A stretch of 33,257 bases of DNA from Candidatus Sumerlaeota bacterium (GTDB lineage Bacteria > Sumerlaeota > Sumerlaeia > JAFGJS01), in contig JAFGJS010000145.1 of assembly GCA_016928995.1 (NCBI GenBank), positions 1 through 33,257 of the forward strand, read 5' to 3'. Positions 6,903 through 33,040 of the stretch are shown piece by piece. The translations under genes were made by a program, and so were the position numbers. The first letter of the stretch is position 1. The number at the start of each line of letters is the position of its first letter. The notes beneath the pieces were generated by a model that made no database searches, was not told where the DNA came from, and was given only the letters and a program-made list of their open reading frames with translations.

Positions 6903-7035
6903 GTGTCAAGTCCCTTGATGTAGATTTCGATAAGAAGAATATTCAAGATGGCAACATCCTGAACGGCGGCCGGCGCAATGGCAAGCGTGAAAGCCAAAAA
7001 ACCAAAAAGTCCAACCCATAATGGGGAAGGGCGCG

Positions 7036-7839
7036 ATGAATTCCTTTGATGACATCTATAGCGTTTCAAGAAGAAAAGCACTCGTTAACGAAGATGAAAT
7101 CATTCGTGCTGAAATGAACTTGGAAGGCGAACTCCCTGTCGGATATGGCCACTTTCTCATGGAATATGGAATAGGTACTTTTTCCGGTTATATGCGTTTG
7201 TTGCGCCCATTCCAAATCATTGAAGCAAAGAAAGAAAATACGGAGCTTTTAATGCATGACTTTTGGGATAGAGGAGAAAATATCCCAAGCCTGGAATTGC
7301 GATCTAAAATGATCGTTTTTGCGGATTCAACTTATGGAGATTCATTTGCTTATCTTCCTGCCCAGCCCAATTGGTTTTTCATTTTTCCTCGTCATAATGA
7401 TCAGATATTTCAAGTTGGGTCTTGTTTTTTCGATTTAGTCAAATGGTTGTTATGTTCGGGCGATATGGTCACGTCTTTCAAGTACCAATATTTTGACCCA
7501 TATAATGAAAAAATTTCCATTCGATTTAAAATTCCTCAACCTTATCCAGAATTAACGCATATGAAGGATATATTTTCCGAGTTAGGTCAGCATGATTATA
7601 TTTATCAAACGGATGAGTACCTACTGTATTTTATTCAAGATGCAGGATTGCTTTTTCATTATAATAAATCGAGATACTCTGATTTTGATAATTATATGCA
7701 ATTATTTGTATCTTTTGACCGAGAATCGAATATTCTTTCCAGTGTCTATCAAGTATTCCAAGGCATGCAATTGCGAGCTATCGAGACAAAAGGCATTGAT
7801 CTTGATGACATCAAAATATATGAATTGAAGGAGTGTTGA
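7036..7839 (+). CDS. SMI1/KNR4 (SUKH)-like protein
   Basis: About 267 residues. The N-terminal part (roughly 10-130) fits the SUKH pattern: an E-rich start, LPVGYGHFLMEYGIGTFSGY, a downstream LLRPFQIIE, and then ADSTYGDSFAY with a WFFIFPRH strand. The second half is not recognised and may be a specialised extension. SUKH proteins often act as immunity proteins against secreted toxins, but no toxin lies next to it. The ATG at 7036 is preceded by GGGGAAGGG, whereas the alternative at 7021 has no site. Base composition is clearly more AT-rich than both neighbours, which suggests acquisition from elsewhere. Only nine bases separate its stop from the kinase start, so the two are probably cotranscribed. 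Confidence 0.7.
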   Translation: MNSFDDIYSVSRRKALVNEDEIIRAEMNLEGELPVGYGHFLMEYGIGTFSGYMRLLRPFQIIEAKKENTELLMHDFWDRGENIPSLELRSKMIVFADSTYGDSFAYLPAQPNWFFIFPRHNDQIFQVGSCFFDLVKWLLCSGDMVTSFKYQYFDPYNEKISIRFKIPQPYPELTHMKDIFSELGQHDYIYQTDEYLLYFIQDAGLLFHYNKSRYSDFDNYMQLFVSFDRESNILSSVYQVFQGMQLRAIETKGIDLDDIKIYELKEC

Positions 7840-20120: not shown

Positions 20121-21119
20121 TTATTGGGCCGCCAATTCCAGCGTCTGCGGACGCGGCTTCACTTCGAAGGCACATTCCGCCCAGACGAGCCTATCCTTGG
20201 AATAAAGCGCGAATTCGTTTTGATGCTTATAGTAATAATCTCCATGAAAGCCAGATGAACGATACGGCGTATCGCTGCGGGTAAAGTCGCGCGGCAAATC
20301 CGCGAAAACGATCCGAAGAGCATAACGGCCGGGCGATGTGGGCGCGAGAAATTCGCCTTCACGAATCAGGACGCACCCGGCGACGGTGAGACTGGATACA
20401 AAGTAGCCTTGCTCCCACTGCTTGAACACATCGAAGCGGTATTTGCCTTCCAGATTCTCCAGGGCTGTGGCGGTGACGGAGAACTTGACGCGCGATCCCG
20501 GAGCGACGCCTTCCGGCACGCCCCAGGCGATTTTTTGCACGACGTCCGAGGAGTGAATTTCATCCGGATTGAACTGGTTTTCCGGAAATTCCGCGGCCAG
20601 GAAATCCATGCGGCGTGGATCCACCCATGCGCTATAGGGAATGGAGACGCGCTGCAGGGACTGTATTTCGTCAATCGACGCGAGGAAAACGGCGTTGCGC
20701 GAGGCCAATTCAAGCATCCCGGAGATGTGCACACGATCCTGTTCATCCACGCCGTCAAACCAGGCGCCGGAACCGTCGCATAACTCCAGATACAGCGCAT
20801 CCCGATTGGCATAGCGGTCCAGCCGTTCGATCTCCATCAGGAACACTTCCAGGATCAGCGGTCCGGTGGTCATCCCGAGCGTTTGGCGGGCTTCCATCAA
20901 GGACAATTTTTTCGCGCACGAGAGTTGCGCCAGGGATTCAACGCTGGTCGTCGCTTTGTCAGTCTTCAGAGCCTGGATCGCGGTGTCATGCACAGTGTGC
21001 CGTGTACCATCGGTCAATGTGATGACGTACGGCTGGTCGATTTGCGCGTCAGAGCGGTTGATCAGGCATAAGCCGATAAAAATGAGATAAAGCACGAAAG
21101 CGCCAGGAGATGATTTCAT
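20121..21119 (-). CDS. Secreted protein of unknown function
   Basis: About 332 residues from the ATG at 21119, preceded nine bases upstream by AAGGAG. A long in-frame extension upstream to 21515 overlaps the divergent LptC-like gene and is rejected. The signal peptide (VLYLIFIGLCLINRSDA) ends at about residue 25. The mature part opens with YVITLTDGTRHTVHD. It then has a region with Leu-rich helices, a middle stretch with DRVHISGMLELAS, and a C-terminal beta-rich part (PGSRVKFSVTATALE, PGRYALRIVFADLP) that looks Ig-like. I recognise no family. The gene converges on the GT-C gene and is divergent from the lipid-export-like genes, with which it may share a control region. Confidence 0.65.
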   Translation of the reverse strand: MKSSPGAFVLYLIFIGLCLINRSDAQIDQPYVITLTDGTRHTVHDTAIQALKTDKATTSVESLAQLSCAKKLSLMEARQTLGMTTGPLILEVFLMEIERLDRYANRDALYLELCDGSGAWFDGVDEQDRVHISGMLELASRNAVFLASIDEIQSLQRVSIPYSAWVDPRRMDFLAAEFPENQFNPDEIHSSDVVQKIAWGVPEGVAPGSRVKFSVTATALENLEGKYRFDVFKQWEQGYFVSSLTVAGCVLIREGEFLAPTSPGRYALRIVFADLPRDFTRSDTPYRSSGFHGDYYYKHQNEFALYSKDRLVWAECAFEVKPRPQTLELAAQ

Positions 21120-21240
21120 GATGATCCGCTCCTTGAATGACTGAATGAATCTGATGGGGAAAGGCCGTTTTCTTCCCAGACGCTTAGCGCTGGAAATGTT
21201 ACGTTTCAATTGAGCGATGATCCTTAAGCGCTGATCCCGG

Positions 21241-21268
21241 TTGACAGCGCATGAGGGGATGTTAAAAC
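21241..21268 (+). promoter_or_regulatory. Candidate sigma70 promoter for the LptC-like gene
   Basis: TTGACA at 21241-21246, 16-base spacer, then TAAAAC at 21263-21268 (4 of 6 consensus). It lies about 60 bases before the GTG start. Read by eye only. Confidence 0.35.
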
Positions 21269-21327
21269 AAGGCGTCCGGTTTGCTGGATTGAACCGGAGG
21301 CGATCATTTTCATCCGAGGTGCGGATC

Positions 21328-22047
21328 GTGAAACTGGCATGGCGAATGACATGGGCGGCGGCCGCGCTGCTGGCGATGGTCTCGACAATTGCGTTGAACG
21401 GCTGTCTGGATTCCCCGGCGACGCCGGAAGATGAGGATTGGTCGAACCGCGGCGGCGATATGCGCATTGACGGCTTCCGGAATGAATCCACCACCACCGG
21501 CACGATCAAAAACATCCTCGTGGCGGAATATGGCTATATGTTCGCGCGCGAGGACCAGATGGATCTTTATAACCTGCGGTTGAGCATGCTGGAGCCGGTC
21601 CAGGACGCAGCGGAGGGCGAACCGACATTCCGGGTGACGGGCGTGTTGACGGCTACGACAGGCACGTATTATCTGGATGACAAGGATTTCGGCGAAGGCG
21701 TCATCCGACATCAGGGCGATTTGGATTTGCATGCGCCGCGAGGCGATGTTATCGTGTATGACTCGCCAGATCAACGATTACAGGTGCAGGAATTGATGTA
21801 TTACGACACGCAAAATAATGCCTTGAGCACATCCAGGACTTACGTGCAATATCAACACGATAAGAAGATCGCCAGCGGACATGAGAAGGGCTTCACACGT
21901 TATATTCAGTCGGATGGCGACCAGAATACCTTTGGTTGGGGAAGAGTCATCAAATATGAGTACGAACGCAATACGGAGAATTTTGACACGTCGGGGGCCT
22001 ATGTGGGTCCGGATCCGCGGGAAATCCCCAAACCGCGCAAACGATAA
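21328..22047 (+). CDS. LptC-like lipoprotein
   Basis: About 239 residues from a GTG at 21328, preceded by GAGGTG at suitable spacing; the frame is open further upstream, but this start gives a proper lipoprotein signal (VKLAWRMTWAAAALLAM, lipobox LNGC). The mature part is beta-rich with an asparagine and aspartate-rich linker, then a segment like MDLYNLRLSMLE and the strands GVIRHQGDLDLHAPRG and VIVYDSPDQRLQVQELMYYD. This is the arrangement of LptC/OstA-fold proteins that pass LPS through the periplasm. It is followed by two OstA-like genes, which strengthens the reading. Classical LptC has a membrane anchor rather than a lipid, so a variant export bridge is possible (inference). Confidence 0.65.
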   Translation: MKLAWRMTWAAAALLAMVSTIALNGCLDSPATPEDEDWSNRGGDMRIDGFRNESTTTGTIKNILVAEYGYMFAREDQMDLYNLRLSMLEPVQDAAEGEPTFRVTGVLTATTGTYYLDDKDFGEGVIRHQGDLDLHAPRGDVIVYDSPDQRLQVQELMYYDTQNNALSTSRTYVQYQHDKKIASGHEKGFTRYIQSDGDQNTFGWGRVIKYEYERNTENFDTSGAYVGPDPREIPKPRKR

Positions 22048-22173
22048 TTCGCCTGTTATGCCGCAAATGGCACGTAATTTGAGCGCGCCTTGCTGTTTTT
22101 ATTGACAGCGGGCGTATTTTTACACAGTCTGTGAATTTCGGACATCAATGGAGGGTGAGGACACCGATACGAA

Positions 22174-23424
22174 ATGAAAAAGCGACTGATATACATAGCG
22201 TTAGCGCTGGCTTGCGCGGCTCTCTATACGAATTGCGGATCGAATGAGGACCAATCCAAGCCTGCCGCGCAGAAAGATGAGTGGAAGGCTCCGGCTCCGG
22301 CCCGGCCGAACCTGAGTTCTGCCAAGCCCGATCTGCCTGCTCCCACGCCGCCGTCATTGGCGCACGGCTGGTCTGATGAGCCGGACGAGGCGTTGACCGG
22401 GGCGCAGGATGACGCGGAAGGCCGGACGTTCGAAATGGATGGCAAGCAATACACGCTGTTCAATCGTAACGCCCAGATGGAACAGTACCGGGAAGATAAG
22501 GACCACAATCCTATTTATGTGCAGGCGATCGGCGACGTGGAGTTGATCTCCAACGATTTTCGGCTGCGCTGCCGGCGTTTGGAATACAAGAGCGAAGACG
22601 GCCTGATGGTCGCCGAGAAATGGCCGGAAAAGCAGGTGCAGTTGACGCAGGGCGATTCGGTTTCATACACCGACAAACTGGTGAACTACACGCAGAAGGG
22701 CGAGGTGCATCTCTTGGGCGACGCTTGCGTGTATCAGCAGAAGGACGGCGACAGCAGCGATATGCGCGGTGATAAAATCGTGCGCAAGGAAACAGAGGAC
22801 GGAGGCGCCATCGTGGATGTCGATGGGCATCCTGTGCTGGTGCGCAAATCCTCCGAGGAGCCGGCTGCTACTGAAGCGGCGGATCAGAACGCCGACGCGG
22901 ATGATCAGCAGATCAAGACGCTGGAGGCCAGCGTGGGCAAGAACTTCACGCTGAAGGCTGATCCCGAAAAGGGCACGTTCCACGTGATTTCCAATGCGGC
23001 GGGCGAGATGGAGACCTTCACCGCGAAGAACAATGTCAAGCTGGACGCGGAAAACATGGATCTGGAAAGCGATGTGTTCAAGATTTTGGACACCGGCAAG
23101 CGTGTCGAGGCCACGGGCGAGCTGGTGAAGATCAAACAGGGCGACGTGGACGCTGAGTGCAGCAAATTCGTGCATTTTCCCGATGACAAGAAAACCGAAC
23201 TTTACGGCTGGAAAGACAAGCCCGCCACGGTTATTCAGCAGGGCATAAAAAGTATGGCAGGCAAATTTGAACTGACGGAAAACGACGACAATACGATGAA
23301 TGTCGTGCAAATAGGGAAGCCGATTACGACAGGTCTCGACGATAAAAATGAAGCCCCAAAGACGCCGGCGCCGAAAAAGACTCCGAAACCGGATCAGGGG
23401 CGGCGGAGTTTGGAAGCGGAATAA
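22174..23424 (+). CDS. OstA/LptA-like exported protein, first of a tandem pair
   Basis: 416 residues. The N-terminus MKKRLIYIALALACAALYTN followed by Cys21 looks like a lipoprotein signal, but the residue before the cysteine is Asn, which is atypical. A Pro/Ala-rich linker (to about residue 80) is followed by an OstA-like beta-taco region with YVQAIGDVELISNDFRLRCR and a long series of short strands. Near residue 255 begins GKNFTLKADPEKGTF, matched in the next gene by GDSFTLKADPENGQF. The two proteins align along most of their length, so this is a gene duplication. The likely role is periplasmic lipid transport, as for LptA. The C-terminus is a Lys/Pro-rich tail. Confidence 0.72.
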   Translation: MKKRLIYIALALACAALYTNCGSNEDQSKPAAQKDEWKAPAPARPNLSSAKPDLPAPTPPSLAHGWSDEPDEALTGAQDDAEGRTFEMDGKQYTLFNRNAQMEQYREDKDHNPIYVQAIGDVELISNDFRLRCRRLEYKSEDGLMVAEKWPEKQVQLTQGDSVSYTDKLVNYTQKGEVHLLGDACVYQQKDGDSSDMRGDKIVRKETEDGGAIVDVDGHPVLVRKSSEEPAATEAADQNADADDQQIKTLEASVGKNFTLKADPEKGTFHVISNAAGEMETFTAKNNVKLDAENMDLESDVFKILDTGKRVEATGELVKIKQGDVDAECSKFVHFPDDKKTELYGWKDKPATVIQQGIKSMAGKFELTENDDNTMNVVQIGKPITTGLDDKNEAPKTPAPKKTPKPDQGRRSLEAE

Positions 23425-23443
23425 ATCTCCAGGGAGTGACGCG

Positions 23444-24574
23444 ATGACTTTGTTTAAACATAAGGATGCTCTCAAGGGCGCGGCAATGCTGTTTGTGGCG
23501 CTGTGTGCCGCGACGGCATGGCCGCAGAGCGGGCAGCAGATGGAGATCATGGGCAAGTCGTTCAACCTGATGAACCACTCCGCCGACGGCCGGCAGGAAT
23601 CGCGCGTGAAGGAAGGCCAGCTGGAGTATCTGCAATCGGTGGGCGACGTGGAATTGCATCAGGGCGAGGAACTCACGCTATACTGCCACCACCTGGAATA
23701 TTTCGCGGACAAGGGTCAGCTGATCGCGCTGCGCTGGGAGGACAAGCCGGTGAAGGCGTTGCAAAGCGGCACGACGGCCTACGCGGACAAGCTCGTTTAC
23801 ATGGTGGAGGCGTCGCGCATCGAGCTTTATGGCAAGGCCTCGGTGATCAGTGAAGACGCGGAGCAGGTGCGCGAGATTTACGGCGAGACGATCATTCGCG
23901 TGATCGATGAGCAGAGCGGCGAGACGACGATTCGTGTGCTGGATCAGCCCGTGATGATCAACAAGCCCTCGGGCGACGCGGCGCAACGGCGGCCGCTGGA
24001 GGAGAGCGTCGAGGATGACAGCGCCGCATCGGCGAACGTGGCAGGCACGCTGGGCGATTCCTTTACGCTGAAAGCCGATCCGGAAAACGGCCAGTTCGAC
24101 ATCAAGACCGGACCGCTTGGCGAAATCCTCAAGTTCACGGCATTGCGCAACGTAAGCCTGCGCTCGGAGAAGATGGACATCGACTGTCATCAGCTGGATT
24201 TGATCGACGACGGCGCGGAATTCATCGCCGTGGGCAATCCGGTGCTGCTGCGGCAGGGCGATGTGCGCGCCGACTGCCATCGCTTCCGTCATTTTGTGGA
24301 GAACAACCAGTCAGTGCTGACCGGCTTCCCGGCGCCGCGTATCCATCAGAAGGAAGACGGCCGTATCGTGACCTCCACAGCGCCGGTCATCCGCATCATG
24401 GAAGGCGAGAGCGGGGAGACAACCATCGACTGGCTGGTGGACGAGAGCGGTTTCGCGCAGAAGGGAAAACGGCCAACCTTGCCGCAGATCCAATTCCGCG
24501 ATCAGGTTGAAACTCAGCATGATGAAGCGGAAGGCCAGCGAGTGATGAAACTGGAATCGATGGCGCTTCGCTGA
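23444..24574 (+). CDS. OstA/LptA-like exported protein, second of a tandem pair
   Basis: 376 residues from the ATG at 23444, preceded by GGGAG. The signal peptide (AAMLFVALCAATAWPQS) ends near 27 without a lipobox. The mature part starts with MEIMGKSFNLMNHS and has YLQSVGDVELHQGEELTLYC, ADKLVYMVEASRIELYG and GDSFTLKADPENGQF, each with a counterpart in the preceding gene. The fold is read as repeated OstA domains, each a run of short beta strands. It lies 19 bases after the first copy and may be coexpressed. The pair could form a heteromeric bridge in lipid export, or one copy may be specialised for another lipid (inference). A longer frame that begins in the first copy is rejected. Confidence 0.75.
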   Translation: MTLFKHKDALKGAAMLFVALCAATAWPQSGQQMEIMGKSFNLMNHSADGRQESRVKEGQLEYLQSVGDVELHQGEELTLYCHHLEYFADKGQLIALRWEDKPVKALQSGTTAYADKLVYMVEASRIELYGKASVISEDAEQVREIYGETIIRVIDEQSGETTIRVLDQPVMINKPSGDAAQRRPLEESVEDDSAASANVAGTLGDSFTLKADPENGQFDIKTGPLGEILKFTALRNVSLRSEKMDIDCHQLDLIDDGAEFIAVGNPVLLRQGDVRADCHRFRHFVENNQSVLTGFPAPRIHQKEDGRIVTSTAPVIRIMEGESGETTIDWLVDESGFAQKGKRPTLPQIQFRDQVETQHDEAEGQRVMKLESMALR

Positions 24575-24695: not shown

Positions 24696-25646
24696 ATGAA
24701 GAACCTGATTACCGGCGCGGCCGGTTTTATCGGCTCCAGCATTGCCAGGCGTTTGATCGCTCAAGGCCAGACCGTGCGCGGCATTGATTGCTTCATCGAT
24801 TATTATCCTCGTTCAATCAAGGAAAACAATATTGCTCCGCTTCGCGATTGCGCGGAGTTTGAGTTTATCGAAGACAGCCTGATGTCCGTGGATCTGGAGC
24901 GTTTGCTCGACGGCGTGAAGGTGGTTTATCATCAAGCCGCGCAGGCTGGTGTGCGCGCCAGCTGGGGCCGGGATTTTGAGATCTACACGGAAAACAACAT
25001 CCGCGCGACACAGCGGCTGCTCGAAGCCTGCCGGGATCGCACGATCAAGGTCGTGTACGCCTCATCCTCCTCGGTCTATGGCGACACGGAAGACTTGCCG
25101 ATGCGCGAGACGTCTCCCACGGCGCCGCATTCGCCCTACGGCGTGAGCAAACTGGCGGCTGAGCACCTCTGCCGGCTGTATACGCGCAACTTTGGACTGC
25201 ATACCGTATCCTTGCGCTATTTCACGGTGTATGGACCTGGACAGCGCCCAGACATGGCGTTTCACAAATGGATCCGCGCGGCGCTGACGGGCAATCCAGT
25301 GACGGTCTACGGCGACGGCGCGCAGACCCGCGACTTCACGTTTATCGACGATATCGTGACGGCGAACCTGCTGGCGGCGGAACGGGGCCAGCCCGGCGCG
25401 GTTTATAATCTCGGCGGCGGCAATCGTATCGACGTGAACGGCGTGCTGGAACTGCTGGGCGGCATTCTGGGCGATGCGCTGAAGGTCGAGCGGATTGAAA
25501 AACAAAAGGGCGACGTGCGCCACACCTTCGCCGACACCACGCTGGCGCAACAGGATCTTGGTTTCAAGCCCGCGATCACGCTGGAAGAGGGCCTGTGCAA
25601 GGAAGCTGAATGGATCGAGCAAGTCATCCTCCCGCTGGCCGTCTGA
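24696..25646 (+). CDS. NAD-dependent nucleotide-sugar epimerase/dehydratase
   Basis: 316 residues of the extended short-chain dehydrogenase family. The Rossmann motif TGAAGFIGS is at 6-14, and the catalytic YGVSK is at 148-152, preceded by SSSSVYGDTEDLPM, with RYFTVYGPGQRPDMAFHKWI after it. The ending GFKPAITLEEGLCKEAEWI is typical. It resembles UDP-glucose 4-epimerase and UDP-glucuronate epimerase relatives; the exact substrate cannot be decided from the sequence. It would supply activated sugars for surface polysaccharide or LPS. A GGAAA site lies eight bases upstream of the ATG. It follows the OstA-like pair on the same strand. Confidence 0.88.
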   Translation: MKNLITGAAGFIGSSIARRLIAQGQTVRGIDCFIDYYPRSIKENNIAPLRDCAEFEFIEDSLMSVDLERLLDGVKVVYHQAAQAGVRASWGRDFEIYTENNIRATQRLLEACRDRTIKVVYASSSSVYGDTEDLPMRETSPTAPHSPYGVSKLAAEHLCRLYTRNFGLHTVSLRYFTVYGPGQRPDMAFHKWIRAALTGNPVTVYGDGAQTRDFTFIDDIVTANLLAAERGQPGAVYNLGGGNRIDVNGVLELLGGILGDALKVERIEKQKGDVRHTFADTTLAQQDLGFKPAITLEEGLCKEAEWIEQVILPLAV

Positions 25647-29519: not shown

Positions 29520-29659
29520 GGCGGTGAATCCTGCAATATTGTGTGATCCTGCGCGTGTTCTATTTTTCAGGGCGCCGCCGCGCCGTCAAGCCAGTTTTAA
29601 CGCCTCAGGATTTGTTTATTGCGATTTTTGGCTCAACGATGTTATTTTTCAAAGACGAT

Positions 29660-32600
29660 ATGAAACTCATGTCCAAGAAACTCGGCTATATAGCCTTTCT
29701 GCTTGCTCTGGGGCCGCTGACGGTGTGGGGAGCCGCTCCGGTGGCGGATGATGCATTGATTCGGATCACGGCGGATTATCAATACGTCATCGGCAGCGCG
29801 GACTACACGGATGCGGACGGCGATCCGGAGGCGGGCAGCCTGTATGCATGGCAGCTCAACAGTGCGCCGTTATCCAACGGAACTGCGCCGCAGTTGTTTT
29901 ATCTTTCATGCGACGGCGATGCGCTGGCCGGGGATGGCCAGGCGCCGCTGGAAAGCGGATCCGAGCAATTCGGCACAGGCAAATGGGGATCGGCGTTCAC
30001 GCTAGACGATGGCGGCAGCCTGGCTTACGCGCGCGCGAACAACCTTGATTGGGACGCGGGCACGCTCGGGATGTGGATCGCGTTGCGCGCTGACAGCGAC
30101 GATCCGATTTACAGTCAAAAAACGCATTACCTGTTCCATTACATGGCGGCGAATGACGATGACATGATCGTCGCCCAGTCGCGCACTTCCGGCATCATCT
30201 ATTTCGGCGGCAGCGTGGGCGGCGAGTGGCAAAGCGCGTATGGCGGCCGCGCGTCGATGCAGGGCTGGGTGGCCGGCGAGTGGCATCATGTCGCCTGCAC
30301 CTGGTCCACCGCAAACAATCGCATGCGCTTTTACCTGGACGGCGCGTTGATCGCGGACACCAACGAGGATCATTACTGGGCGCCGCCGTCCACCGGCGAC
30401 CGGTTTTATCTCGGCGGCAATGTCTGGAACAGCGTGGCGCATTATTGGATCGATGAAGTGCAGATACTCAGCTACGAAGCGGACGGCGACGAGATTCGCG
30501 CTCGCGCCGCTCGTTTGTCGGAGCCGCTGCACGGCGAGGTTTGGCTGGCGACGAACACGCTGAATCCCGGCGATATACTGCTTTTTCAATACACTCCTTC
30601 CGATGGAACCGGGACCGGAGCGGTCCAGACCAGCGATCCGTATATTTATCTCGGCGTGCCGCTTGGCGATCCCGACCCGCCCAGCACCTTGCTTCCGGCG
30701 AATTCGAGCTCCTTCAACCTGACCCTATCCTCCACCGCTCCCTTGTCGTGCCGCTATTCGGTGAATGCGATCATGGACTACGATGCAATGACCGATTTCG
30801 ATTCCGGGCAGGGCGGTCTCACGCATCAGACCACGATCGAGGGGCTGGATCCGAACACGCTGGTCCTCAACGATGTTTACGTCCGTTGCTCCACTCAGCC
30901 CGACTATTTGCTGAGCCTGAAGTACCGCAGCCTGCCCTCGCCCAATGCGCATTATCCGCGCACAGGCAACCTCTGGGGCTGGTGGAACTTTTACGACAAA
31001 GGCGTGGAATACATGTCGCGCATCGACCTCTGGCTGGGCGCGGATATGCCGCTGAGTTACAATATGCAACTGCGCAGGCTGAATCCGAACGTGGTGATCC
31101 TGACTTCGATCAACACCGTGGAACACAACGGCCTGCCGGACGACTATTACCTCAAGGATATCAACGGCGATAAGATCGAGGTCTGGCCGGACGTCTATCG
31201 CCTGAATCTGACCAAACCTGAGGTGGCGGCGTATCAGGCGAATTACGCTTATCAGAAAATTTTAGACAACAACCTGATGGTCGATGGCTGCTTCTTCGAT
31301 AATTTTTTCGTCTCGCAGTCCTGGCTGGATGAAGACATCCACGGCAATCCGGTGCAGCTGGACGCCGATGAGGACGGCGTCGAGGATGATCCGGATTGGC
31401 TGGACGAGCAATGGCGCGCGGGCGTCTTCGCCGAGATTCGCGAGTGGCGGCGCCTGATGCCTTACGCGTTGGCTTCCGGACATCTGCCTGCCGTGGATGA
31501 GCCGGACGTCGCCGAGGTGTTCAACTCGGAAAGCATCGGCTTCCTCACTGCCGACGTGCTGGATGGCAAGAGGCCGTTTATCGAAACGTGGCAATATTAT
31601 CACGACTGGTGCGATAATGGGCTGGAGCCGGACATCACCATGGTCGAATCCTCGCCGCACGATCAGATCGCCTATGGCTATGACTATAGCCCGTTGGAGA
31701 AAATCCCCGCGTCCACGCTGGAGTTCGCCAAGAGCTACTATCCCTACGTGCGCTTCGGACTGGCGCTGGTGCTGATGAACGACGGCTACTTCGCCCATGA
31801 GTTCGGCGACACCGATCACGGCCAGGATTGGTGGTACGACGAACTGGATTTCGACCTGGGGCATCCGCTGGGGCCGTATCAGCGAGTTGACATCGGCGCC
31901 ACATCCAGCGGGAACTTGATCGTGAACGGATCGTTTGAAAATCCGATTGGCGATTGGAACTTTTGGGTCAACACGGATTATGGCGCGGAGGCGACTGTTG
32001 AGCGCGTCACTTCCGGCGTCGTTGTTGGAACGGCATGTGCGCATGTCAATGTCGCGAATAGCGGAAACGGCACGAACTGGCACGTGAATTTCTATCAGGC
32101 GAACCGTTCGCTGACGGAAGGGCAATTGTATGATTTCATCTTCTGGGCGCGCAGCGACATCGAGCGCCCCATCGGCGTCAGCGCGCAAAAAGGCGGCGGA
32201 GACTGGCGCAACTATGGAATGTCCCGGGACGTCTACATCGGCACGCAATGGCGTGAATATACCGAGACCTTTGAAGCCAATGAAACCGCCACGGACGCCC
32301 GGCTGCAATTCTTCTGCGGAGACGAAGCTGGCGACATCTGGTTGGACGATGTGCGGCTGATCGAACATCCGGCGGATGTGTTCCGCCGCGATTTTTCGCG
32401 CGGCGTGGTGCTGCTCAATGGAACCGATGAACGTGTAACCCTGTCGCTTGAGTCGGGCCTTCAGCGCTTGCAGGGCGCTCAGGCGCCGATGCATCAATAC
32501 ATCCTCGACGACACGACCGACGTTTTTAGTTACACTAGCGCCTGGCTGCAGGTTGAGATCGACAGCGGTGAATGGAAATCCAGCGGCCCTTTCTATCACG

Positions 32601-33040
32601 ATTGGGGCGAGGATTGCCATCAGCTGGACTCCGGCGAGACTGGCGAGGCGCAGTGGGACCTGCAATTGCGCGCTGACGACACTTACACGATTCAGGCCTG
32701 GTGGCCCGCATCGCCCGATGCGGGCAGTTGGAGTTCACAGGTCGTTTGCGAAGTCGTCGCCGATGGATCGATTGCAACTTCAGCGATGCTCGACCAAACC
32801 ACCGGCGGCGACGAATGGCACACCATCGCCGCGCTGCCGCTGACGATGTCCAGCGCGCCGTATGTGCGCATTCGCAATGAAGGAACCGGCGCCTGCATCG
32901 CCGACGCGCTGCACGTCTTTTCCCAATCGCGCTACAACAACGGCGCCCGCACAGATGAAGTCACGCTCGAACCGCTTGACGGCGTCATCCTTCAACGCTC
33001 CCCTCGCGCTGCCAACATGAACTGGGATATTTATCAATAA
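29660..33040 (+). CDS. Large secreted multidomain glycosidase-like protein
   Basis: About 1126 residues from the ATG at 29660 (MKLMSKKLGYIAFLLALGPL), a good signal peptide; other in-frame starts lie at 29639 and 29543. Domains in order, with rough positions: an Ig-like half (30-70, YTDADGDPEAGSLYAWQLN); a LamG-type jelly roll (107-275); the other Ig-like half (VWLATNTLNPGD, 290-330); an Fn3-like stretch (345-425); a TIM-barrel-like segment with VDGCFFDNFF, SESIGF and a HEFGDTDHGQDWWYDE motif (430-745), resembling hypothetical glycoside hydrolases of the GHL15 kind; a CBM4/9-like jelly roll (750-900, beginning NLIVNGSFENP); a short beta segment; and a golvesin-like C-terminal domain (975-1092, FYHDWGEDC). 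The carbohydrate target is unknown. No ribosome binding site stands out. Confidence 0.75.
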   Translation: MKLMSKKLGYIAFLLALGPLTVWGAAPVADDALIRITADYQYVIGSADYTDADGDPEAGSLYAWQLNSAPLSNGTAPQLFYLSCDGDALAGDGQAPLESGSEQFGTGKWGSAFTLDDGGSLAYARANNLDWDAGTLGMWIALRADSDDPIYSQKTHYLFHYMAANDDDMIVAQSRTSGIIYFGGSVGGEWQSAYGGRASMQGWVAGEWHHVACTWSTANNRMRFYLDGALIADTNEDHYWAPPSTGDRFYLGGNVWNSVAHYWIDEVQILSYEADGDEIRARAARLSEPLHGEVWLATNTLNPGDILLFQYTPSDGTGTGAVQTSDPYIYLGVPLGDPDPPSTLLPANSSSFNLTLSSTAPLSCRYSVNAIMDYDAMTDFDSGQGGLTHQTTIEGLDPNTLVLNDVYVRCSTQPDYLLSLKYRSLPSPNAHYPRTGNLWGWWNFYDKGVEYMSRIDLWLGADMPLSYNMQLRRLNPNVVILTSINTVEHNGLPDDYYLKDINGDKIEVWPDVYRLNLTKPEVAAYQANYAYQKILDNNLMVDGCFFDNFFVSQSWLDEDIHGNPVQLDADEDGVEDDPDWLDEQWRAGVFAEIREWRRLMPYALASGHLPAVDEPDVAEVFNSESIGFLTADVLDGKRPFIETWQYYHDWCDNGLEPDITMVESSPHDQIAYGYDYSPLEKIPASTLEFAKSYYPYVRFGLALVLMNDGYFAHEFGDTDHGQDWWYDELDFDLGHPLGPYQRVDIGATSSGNLIVNGSFENPIGDWNFWVNTDYGAEATVERVTSGVVVGTACAHVNVANSGNGTNWHVNFYQANRSLTEGQLYDFIFWARSDIERPIGVSAQKGGGDWRNYGMSRDVYIGTQWREYTETFEANETATDARLQFFCGDEAGDIWLDDVRLIEHPADVFRRDFSRGVVLLNGTDERVTLSLESGLQRLQGAQAPMHQYILDDTTDVFSYTSAWLQVEIDSGEWKSSGPFYHDWGEDCHQLDSGETGEAQWDLQLRADDTYTIQAWWPASPDAGSWSSQVVCEVVADGSIATSAMLDQTTGGDEWHTIAALPLTMSSAPYVRIRNEGTGACIADALHVFSQSRYNNGARTDEVTLEPLDGVILQRSPRAANMNWDIYQ

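Follow-up and report, generated by a model that had tools for sequence, protein, structure and literature searches.

The window, here the whole 33,257-nucleotide stretch of DNA that was analysed, comes from a little-studied bacterium of Candidatus Sumerlaeota, class Sumerlaeia, and very probably holds the lptC-lptA part of an ordinary lipopolysaccharide (LPS) transport (Lpt) system. In it, lptA was duplicated internally and then as a whole gene, so that LPS would travel from LptB2FG through an LptC-type lipoprotein and a groove of up to four modules to LptD. The locus is accordingly read as a variant of the known Lpt system in which LptA is multiplied, rather than as a bridge of its own for some other lipid.

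Organization of the lptC-lptA-1-lptA-2 locus

A total of three consecutive open reading frames were confirmed on the forward strand, namely lptC-type, lptA-1 and lptA-2. The first (21328-22047) encodes a divergent LptC-type periplasmic lipoprotein of 239 aa with a GTG start, a signal peptide and the lipobox LNGC at Cys26. It is followed by two LptA/OstA-type proteins, LptA-1 (22174-23424, 416 aa) and LptA-2 (23444-24574, 376 aa). The open reading frames and the HMM homology described below agree with the sequence-only reading, which had proposed an LptC-like lipoprotein gene followed by two tandem OstA-like paralogues, and the 19 bases that it placed between the paralogues were recovered as well (23425-23443). 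No promoter-like site was found in this gap, which, together with its shortness, suggests that lptA-1 and lptA-2 are co-expressed. Downstream, a NAD-dependent sugar epimerase/dehydratase gene (24696-25646, forward strand; PF01370, E 1.9e-60) is the conserved neighbour of lptA in the class.

Other genes of the window were also recorded. A divergent gene upstream of lptC (20121-21515, reverse strand) had no Pfam or NCBIfam match, and a 1165-aa protein (29543-33040, forward) combined laminin-G-like, GHL15 glycosyl hydrolase, CBM4_9 and golvesin C-terminal domains. Furthermore, next to a gene for a Ser/Thr kinase lies one for a SMI1/KNR4 (SUKH) domain protein (7021-7839, forward), a type of protein that frequently provides immunity in toxin systems.

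The LptC-type protein of the window gave no match to the Pfam LptC family (PF06835) up to an E-value of 1, but was found with an HMM built solely from seven relatives (E 4.3e-9, the best of 200 shuffles being 0.14). Five of the eight aligned members of this LptC-type family matched Pfam LptC (best E 3.9e-8), the lipobox cysteine was invariant across the eight-sequence alignment, and the position directly before lptA was conserved in relatives. The HMM match and the Pfam matches of its relatives indicate a divergent protein homologous to recognised LptC proteins through its Sumerlaeia relatives, and the LptC-like lipoprotein first suggested from the sequence holds. While the window protein carries a lipobox, E. 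coli LptC is anchored by an N-terminal membrane helix instead.

Paralogy and module composition of the LptA proteins

When LptA-1 was used as a query in its own genome, LptA-2 was retrieved with an E-value of 2e-43 and 32% identity across approximately 266 residues. Compared by halves, the two proteins matched N to N (31%, E 1.8e-20) and C to C (40%, E 1e-23), while the similarity between N and C modules was weaker (best E 2.4e-6). The collinear segments noticed earlier in the genes at 22174 and 23444 are therefore not due to chance. To describe the modules, nine LptA proteins of relatives, each with one module, served to build a single-module HMM that left out the window sequences. It matched each of the two proteins twice, giving four LptA modules at the locus: 1N (22411-22911, aa 80-246, i-E 3.6e-13) and 1C (22912-23208, aa 247-345, i-E 3.3e-20) in LptA-1, and 2N (23534-23995, aa 31-184, i-E 8.2e-13) and 2C (24020-24427, aa 193-328, i-E 6.7e-26) in LptA-2. 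The large size of both proteins is thus explained by two LptA modules inside each, and the much enlarged, duplicated OstA pair of the sequence-only reading is real, its enlargement being a module duplication. Moreover, in a tree of 53 modules, those of the window proteins grouped N with N (99/96) and C with C (95/93), a pairing that indicates that one two-module gene was duplicated whole; the bootstrap of this tree was short of fully settled and several branches were long, so the detailed placement of modules is unsure.

Although this shared profile matched both long proteins, the curated cut-offs were missed. For Pfam LptD_N/LptA (PF03968), LptA-1 reached 18.8 bits and LptA-2 19.7 bits, both below the cut-off of 20.4, and LptA-2 scored 21.6 bits against TIGR03002 (E 1.5e-4), under a cut-off of 71.7. 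In the alignment of the window proteins with their relatives, 7 of the 15 sequences matched PF03968 (best E 2.2e-5). A match of LptA-1 to lysyl-tRNA synthetase (E 0.0015, 17 bits vs. a cut-off of 468) was judged to be chance.

With regard to the start types, LptA-2 has the plain signal peptide that had been proposed, followed by its two modules, but the lipoprotein-like start assigned to LptA-1 is doubtful. This protein begins with a signal-like segment and an approximately 60-residue Pro/Ala-rich spacer, after which come the two modules, and its candidate cysteines near the signal are preceded by Asn or by a very short hydrophobic stretch, making a poor lipobox.

Predicted fold

LptA-2 was modelled with AlphaFold2 from a shallow alignment of five sequences. 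The model contained two beta domains, with a mean pLDDT of 65 and values of approximately 88 in the N module, while a pTM of 0.43 means that the mutual arrangement of the two modules lacks a confident prediction. The top matches in the PDB were LptH (4UU4) and LptA (2R19, 2R1A), with Foldseek E-values of approximately 1e-5 and VIA Z values of 14.9-15.2 over 114-123 residues, unrelated rows reaching 6.5 at most; the LptD N-domains and LptC ranked next, as expected for this fold. The aligned region (residues 36-169, Z ~15) falls in module 2N, for which the model predicts the LptA-type beta jelly-roll. For module 2C, the assignment as an LptA module stems mainly from sequence homology. When PDB sequences were searched by profile, the LptA and LptH matches were weak (E 0.027 and 0.11), and nothing useful emerged for the LptC-type protein. 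Structure prediction, which had been proposed as a check, therefore recovered the LptA-like jelly-roll for the N module of LptA-2, but the strand-rich model of the LptC-type protein (pLDDT 40.5) was too poor for use.

The best Foldseek match, Pseudomonas aeruginosa LptH (VIA Z 14.9, 23% identity over 115 residues), is a single-module protein proposed to act through oligomers (PMC7347655), while the window proteins have two modules. Similarly, E. coli LptA (YhbN) shares with the window LptA proteins the jelly-roll predicted by the model match (Z ~15), an export signal and a gene adjoining lptC, but it is one module from one gene, compared with two genes of two modules each in the window, and the identity in the structural alignment is approximately 15%.

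Conserved gene order in relatives

The loci of relatives were gathered with the conserved epimerase as a query, for which the best named matches were genomes of Candidatus Sumerlaeota; a search of the genome contigs with LptA-2 alone found none. The epimerase followed ostA in twelve loci (L036, L038-L041, L043, L045, L046, L048 and L051-L053). The order kdsB, pyrG, kdsC, lpxL, lptC, lptA, epimerase was found in L045 and L046/L053, L053 (Sumerlaeota AUK269) being also the locus of genome G018, which gives the class as Sumerlaeia. Shorter versions appeared in L038 (kdsC, lpxL, lptC, lptA, epimerase) and in L051 and L052 (kdsC, lptC-type, lptA, epimerase), where, as in the other relatives, the kds, pyrG and lpxL names were assigned on sequence motifs instead of profiles. 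The window retains lptC, lptA-1, lptA-2 and the epimerase, and this shared block, together with the KDO/lipid A genes around it in relatives, ties the locus to LPS. Single-module Sumerlaeia LptA proteins (e.g. AUK269, L053) occupy the same position between the LptC lipoprotein and the same epimerase, with one module vs. the two per protein of the window. Close relatives of the Sumerlaeota epimerase (59-61%) were also present in two contigs labelled Desulfobacterales (L054 and L055); in L054, two LptF/LptG-like frames precede the epimerase by a few genes.

Lpt partners and likely cargo

The remaining Lpt components were encoded on other contigs of the window genome. Contig C108 carried the sole LptB above the family cut-off (347.7 bits, cut-off 240), exactly two LptF/LptG proteins made up one pair, and LpxC and LpxL were present. 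Searches of this genome with the Pfam models LptC, LptD_N, LptD and LptD_2 gave no matches. However, a single LptD (C154:24487-26934; L190:4413-7181 (-), genome G000, a 923-aa frame) was recovered at E 2.8e-112 with a profile founded on two relatives' sequences, each of which had a sub-threshold Pfam LptD match. The blank Pfam searches were therefore failures of sensitivity, and the LptD assignment, as the protein has no score in the Pfam LptD models, rests on the relatives' profile. LptD is a divergent group in Sumerlaeia, and in each of the 20 genomes of good quality it was detected solely with the group's own profile.

LptB, LptC, LptD, LptF and LptG are thus all present in the genome. It is true that no LptB-like ATPase adjoins the locus, but this is no sign of a variant system, since LptB sits on another contig and its missing neighbourhood is a matter of gene order only. 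This set of partners and the KDO/lipid A cluster around the block in relatives point to ordinary LPS as the likely cargo, contrary to the lineage-specific lipid imagined from the sequence.

Number and history of LptA modules in Sumerlaeia

LptA modules were present in 36 of 39 Sumerlaeia genomes, ranging from one to four per locus, with the window genome at the maximum; these are draft assemblies, in which gene absences count as weak evidence. Most relatives had one lptA gene. Families f4, f5, f10 and f14 had one LptA module in proteins of approximately 218-300 aa, families f8, f12 and f13 had mostly two modules within one protein, and family f3 had two genes in a row, the first with one module and the second with two. 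The lptC-ostA-ostA order, which had been suggested as something to survey, recurred across several families (genomes G011, G008 and G005), while in genome G002 the contig ended before lptC. Two unusual frames were also seen: in genome G005, a 491-aa frame behind lptC-lptA (L170:608-2080 (-)) had two weak LptA modules (overall E 8.6e-6), and in genome G017, an LptC-type region and an LptA module shared a single frame of 471 aa that begins with a membrane-helix-like segment (L166:3763-5175 (-)). The latter frame is an apparent LptC-LptA fusion, and a separate LptA of 231 aa comes after it.

Placing all the N modules of two-module proteins in one clade was rejected (AU p 2e-8), and with it the idea that two-module proteins arose only once, so modules were most likely duplicated more than once. 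A clade of the four window modules was not rejected (p 0.30), so the first internal duplication may date to this lineage. Multi-module OstA proteins are known from other phyla, and proteins with two modules may therefore exist outside the class as well.

Proposed role of the duplicated LptA proteins

As the sequence-only reading had supposed, the locus very probably takes its place in a trans-envelope bridge, which is supported by the established LptA and LptC homology, the count of modules, the jelly-roll model of one of them and the partner genes. By analogy with the Lpt system, LptB2FG would extract LPS from the inner membrane and hand it to the LptC-type lipoprotein, from which it would enter a periplasmic groove built from as many as four serially arranged jelly-roll modules of the two LptA proteins, and reach LptD. 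The serial order of the modules, a direct contact between LptA-1 and LptA-2 and the nature of the cargo are inferred. The oligomer would then be partly built in covalently, and LptA-1 and LptA-2 may alternate along it. The best reading is a hetero-oligomeric LPS bridge, with the genes determining in part how many LptA units it contains.

Other roles were weighed against this one. The two proteins have diverged to approximately 32% identity and LptA-1 has a long Pro/Ala-rich spacer, as might be expected if one paralogue bridged LPS and the other served a different lipid or polymer. However, the genome has only one LptF/LptG pair, one LptB above the cut-off and one LptD, and this presence of a single inner-membrane and a single outer-membrane complex speaks against an additional bridge for some other lipid. 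Moreover, the locus lies inside the KDO/lipid A cluster in relatives, most of which manage this task with a single gene, making this explanation improbable. The same spacer, of approximately 60 residues at the N-terminus, and the cysteines near the signal could also suit an accessory LptA-1 lying outside the groove, such as a membrane adaptor, possibly with a lipid anchor; it is an equally improbable role, as each of its modules scores as an LptA module and has its counterpart in LptA-2, and the lipobox is poor. A somewhat better case, though still an unlikely one, can be made for exchangeable proteins, each building its own homo-oligomeric bridge, for instance under different growth conditions, given that both proteins are complete, with two modules and an export signal apiece. 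Against it stand the 19-base spacing free of a promoter-like site, which suggests co-expression, and the recurrence of the lptC-lptA-lptA order in other families.

The hetero-oligomeric LPS bridge bears on how many LptA units an LPS bridge contains, a number regarded as uncertain and under debate (PMC7347655). Single-module E. coli LptA and Pseudomonas LptH can form head-to-tail oligomers (PMC7347655), and a monomeric E. coli LptA still sustains growth (PMC5575297). Among the papers searched, none linked LptA with Sumerlaeota. Tentatively, and with the balance somewhat against it, the number of bridge modules in Sumerlaeia might be genetically preset, from one to four per locus, through repeated independent fusion and gene duplication. 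The window would then encode a hetero-oligomer of two two-module proteins with a fixed length, possibly matched to the width of the periplasm. Of these results, the repeated amplification of LptA in a single class holds the greatest interest. It provides a natural series of one to four modules per locus in which to ask whether the length of the bridge is fixed, whether it tracks the width of the periplasm and whether oligomerisation is needed.
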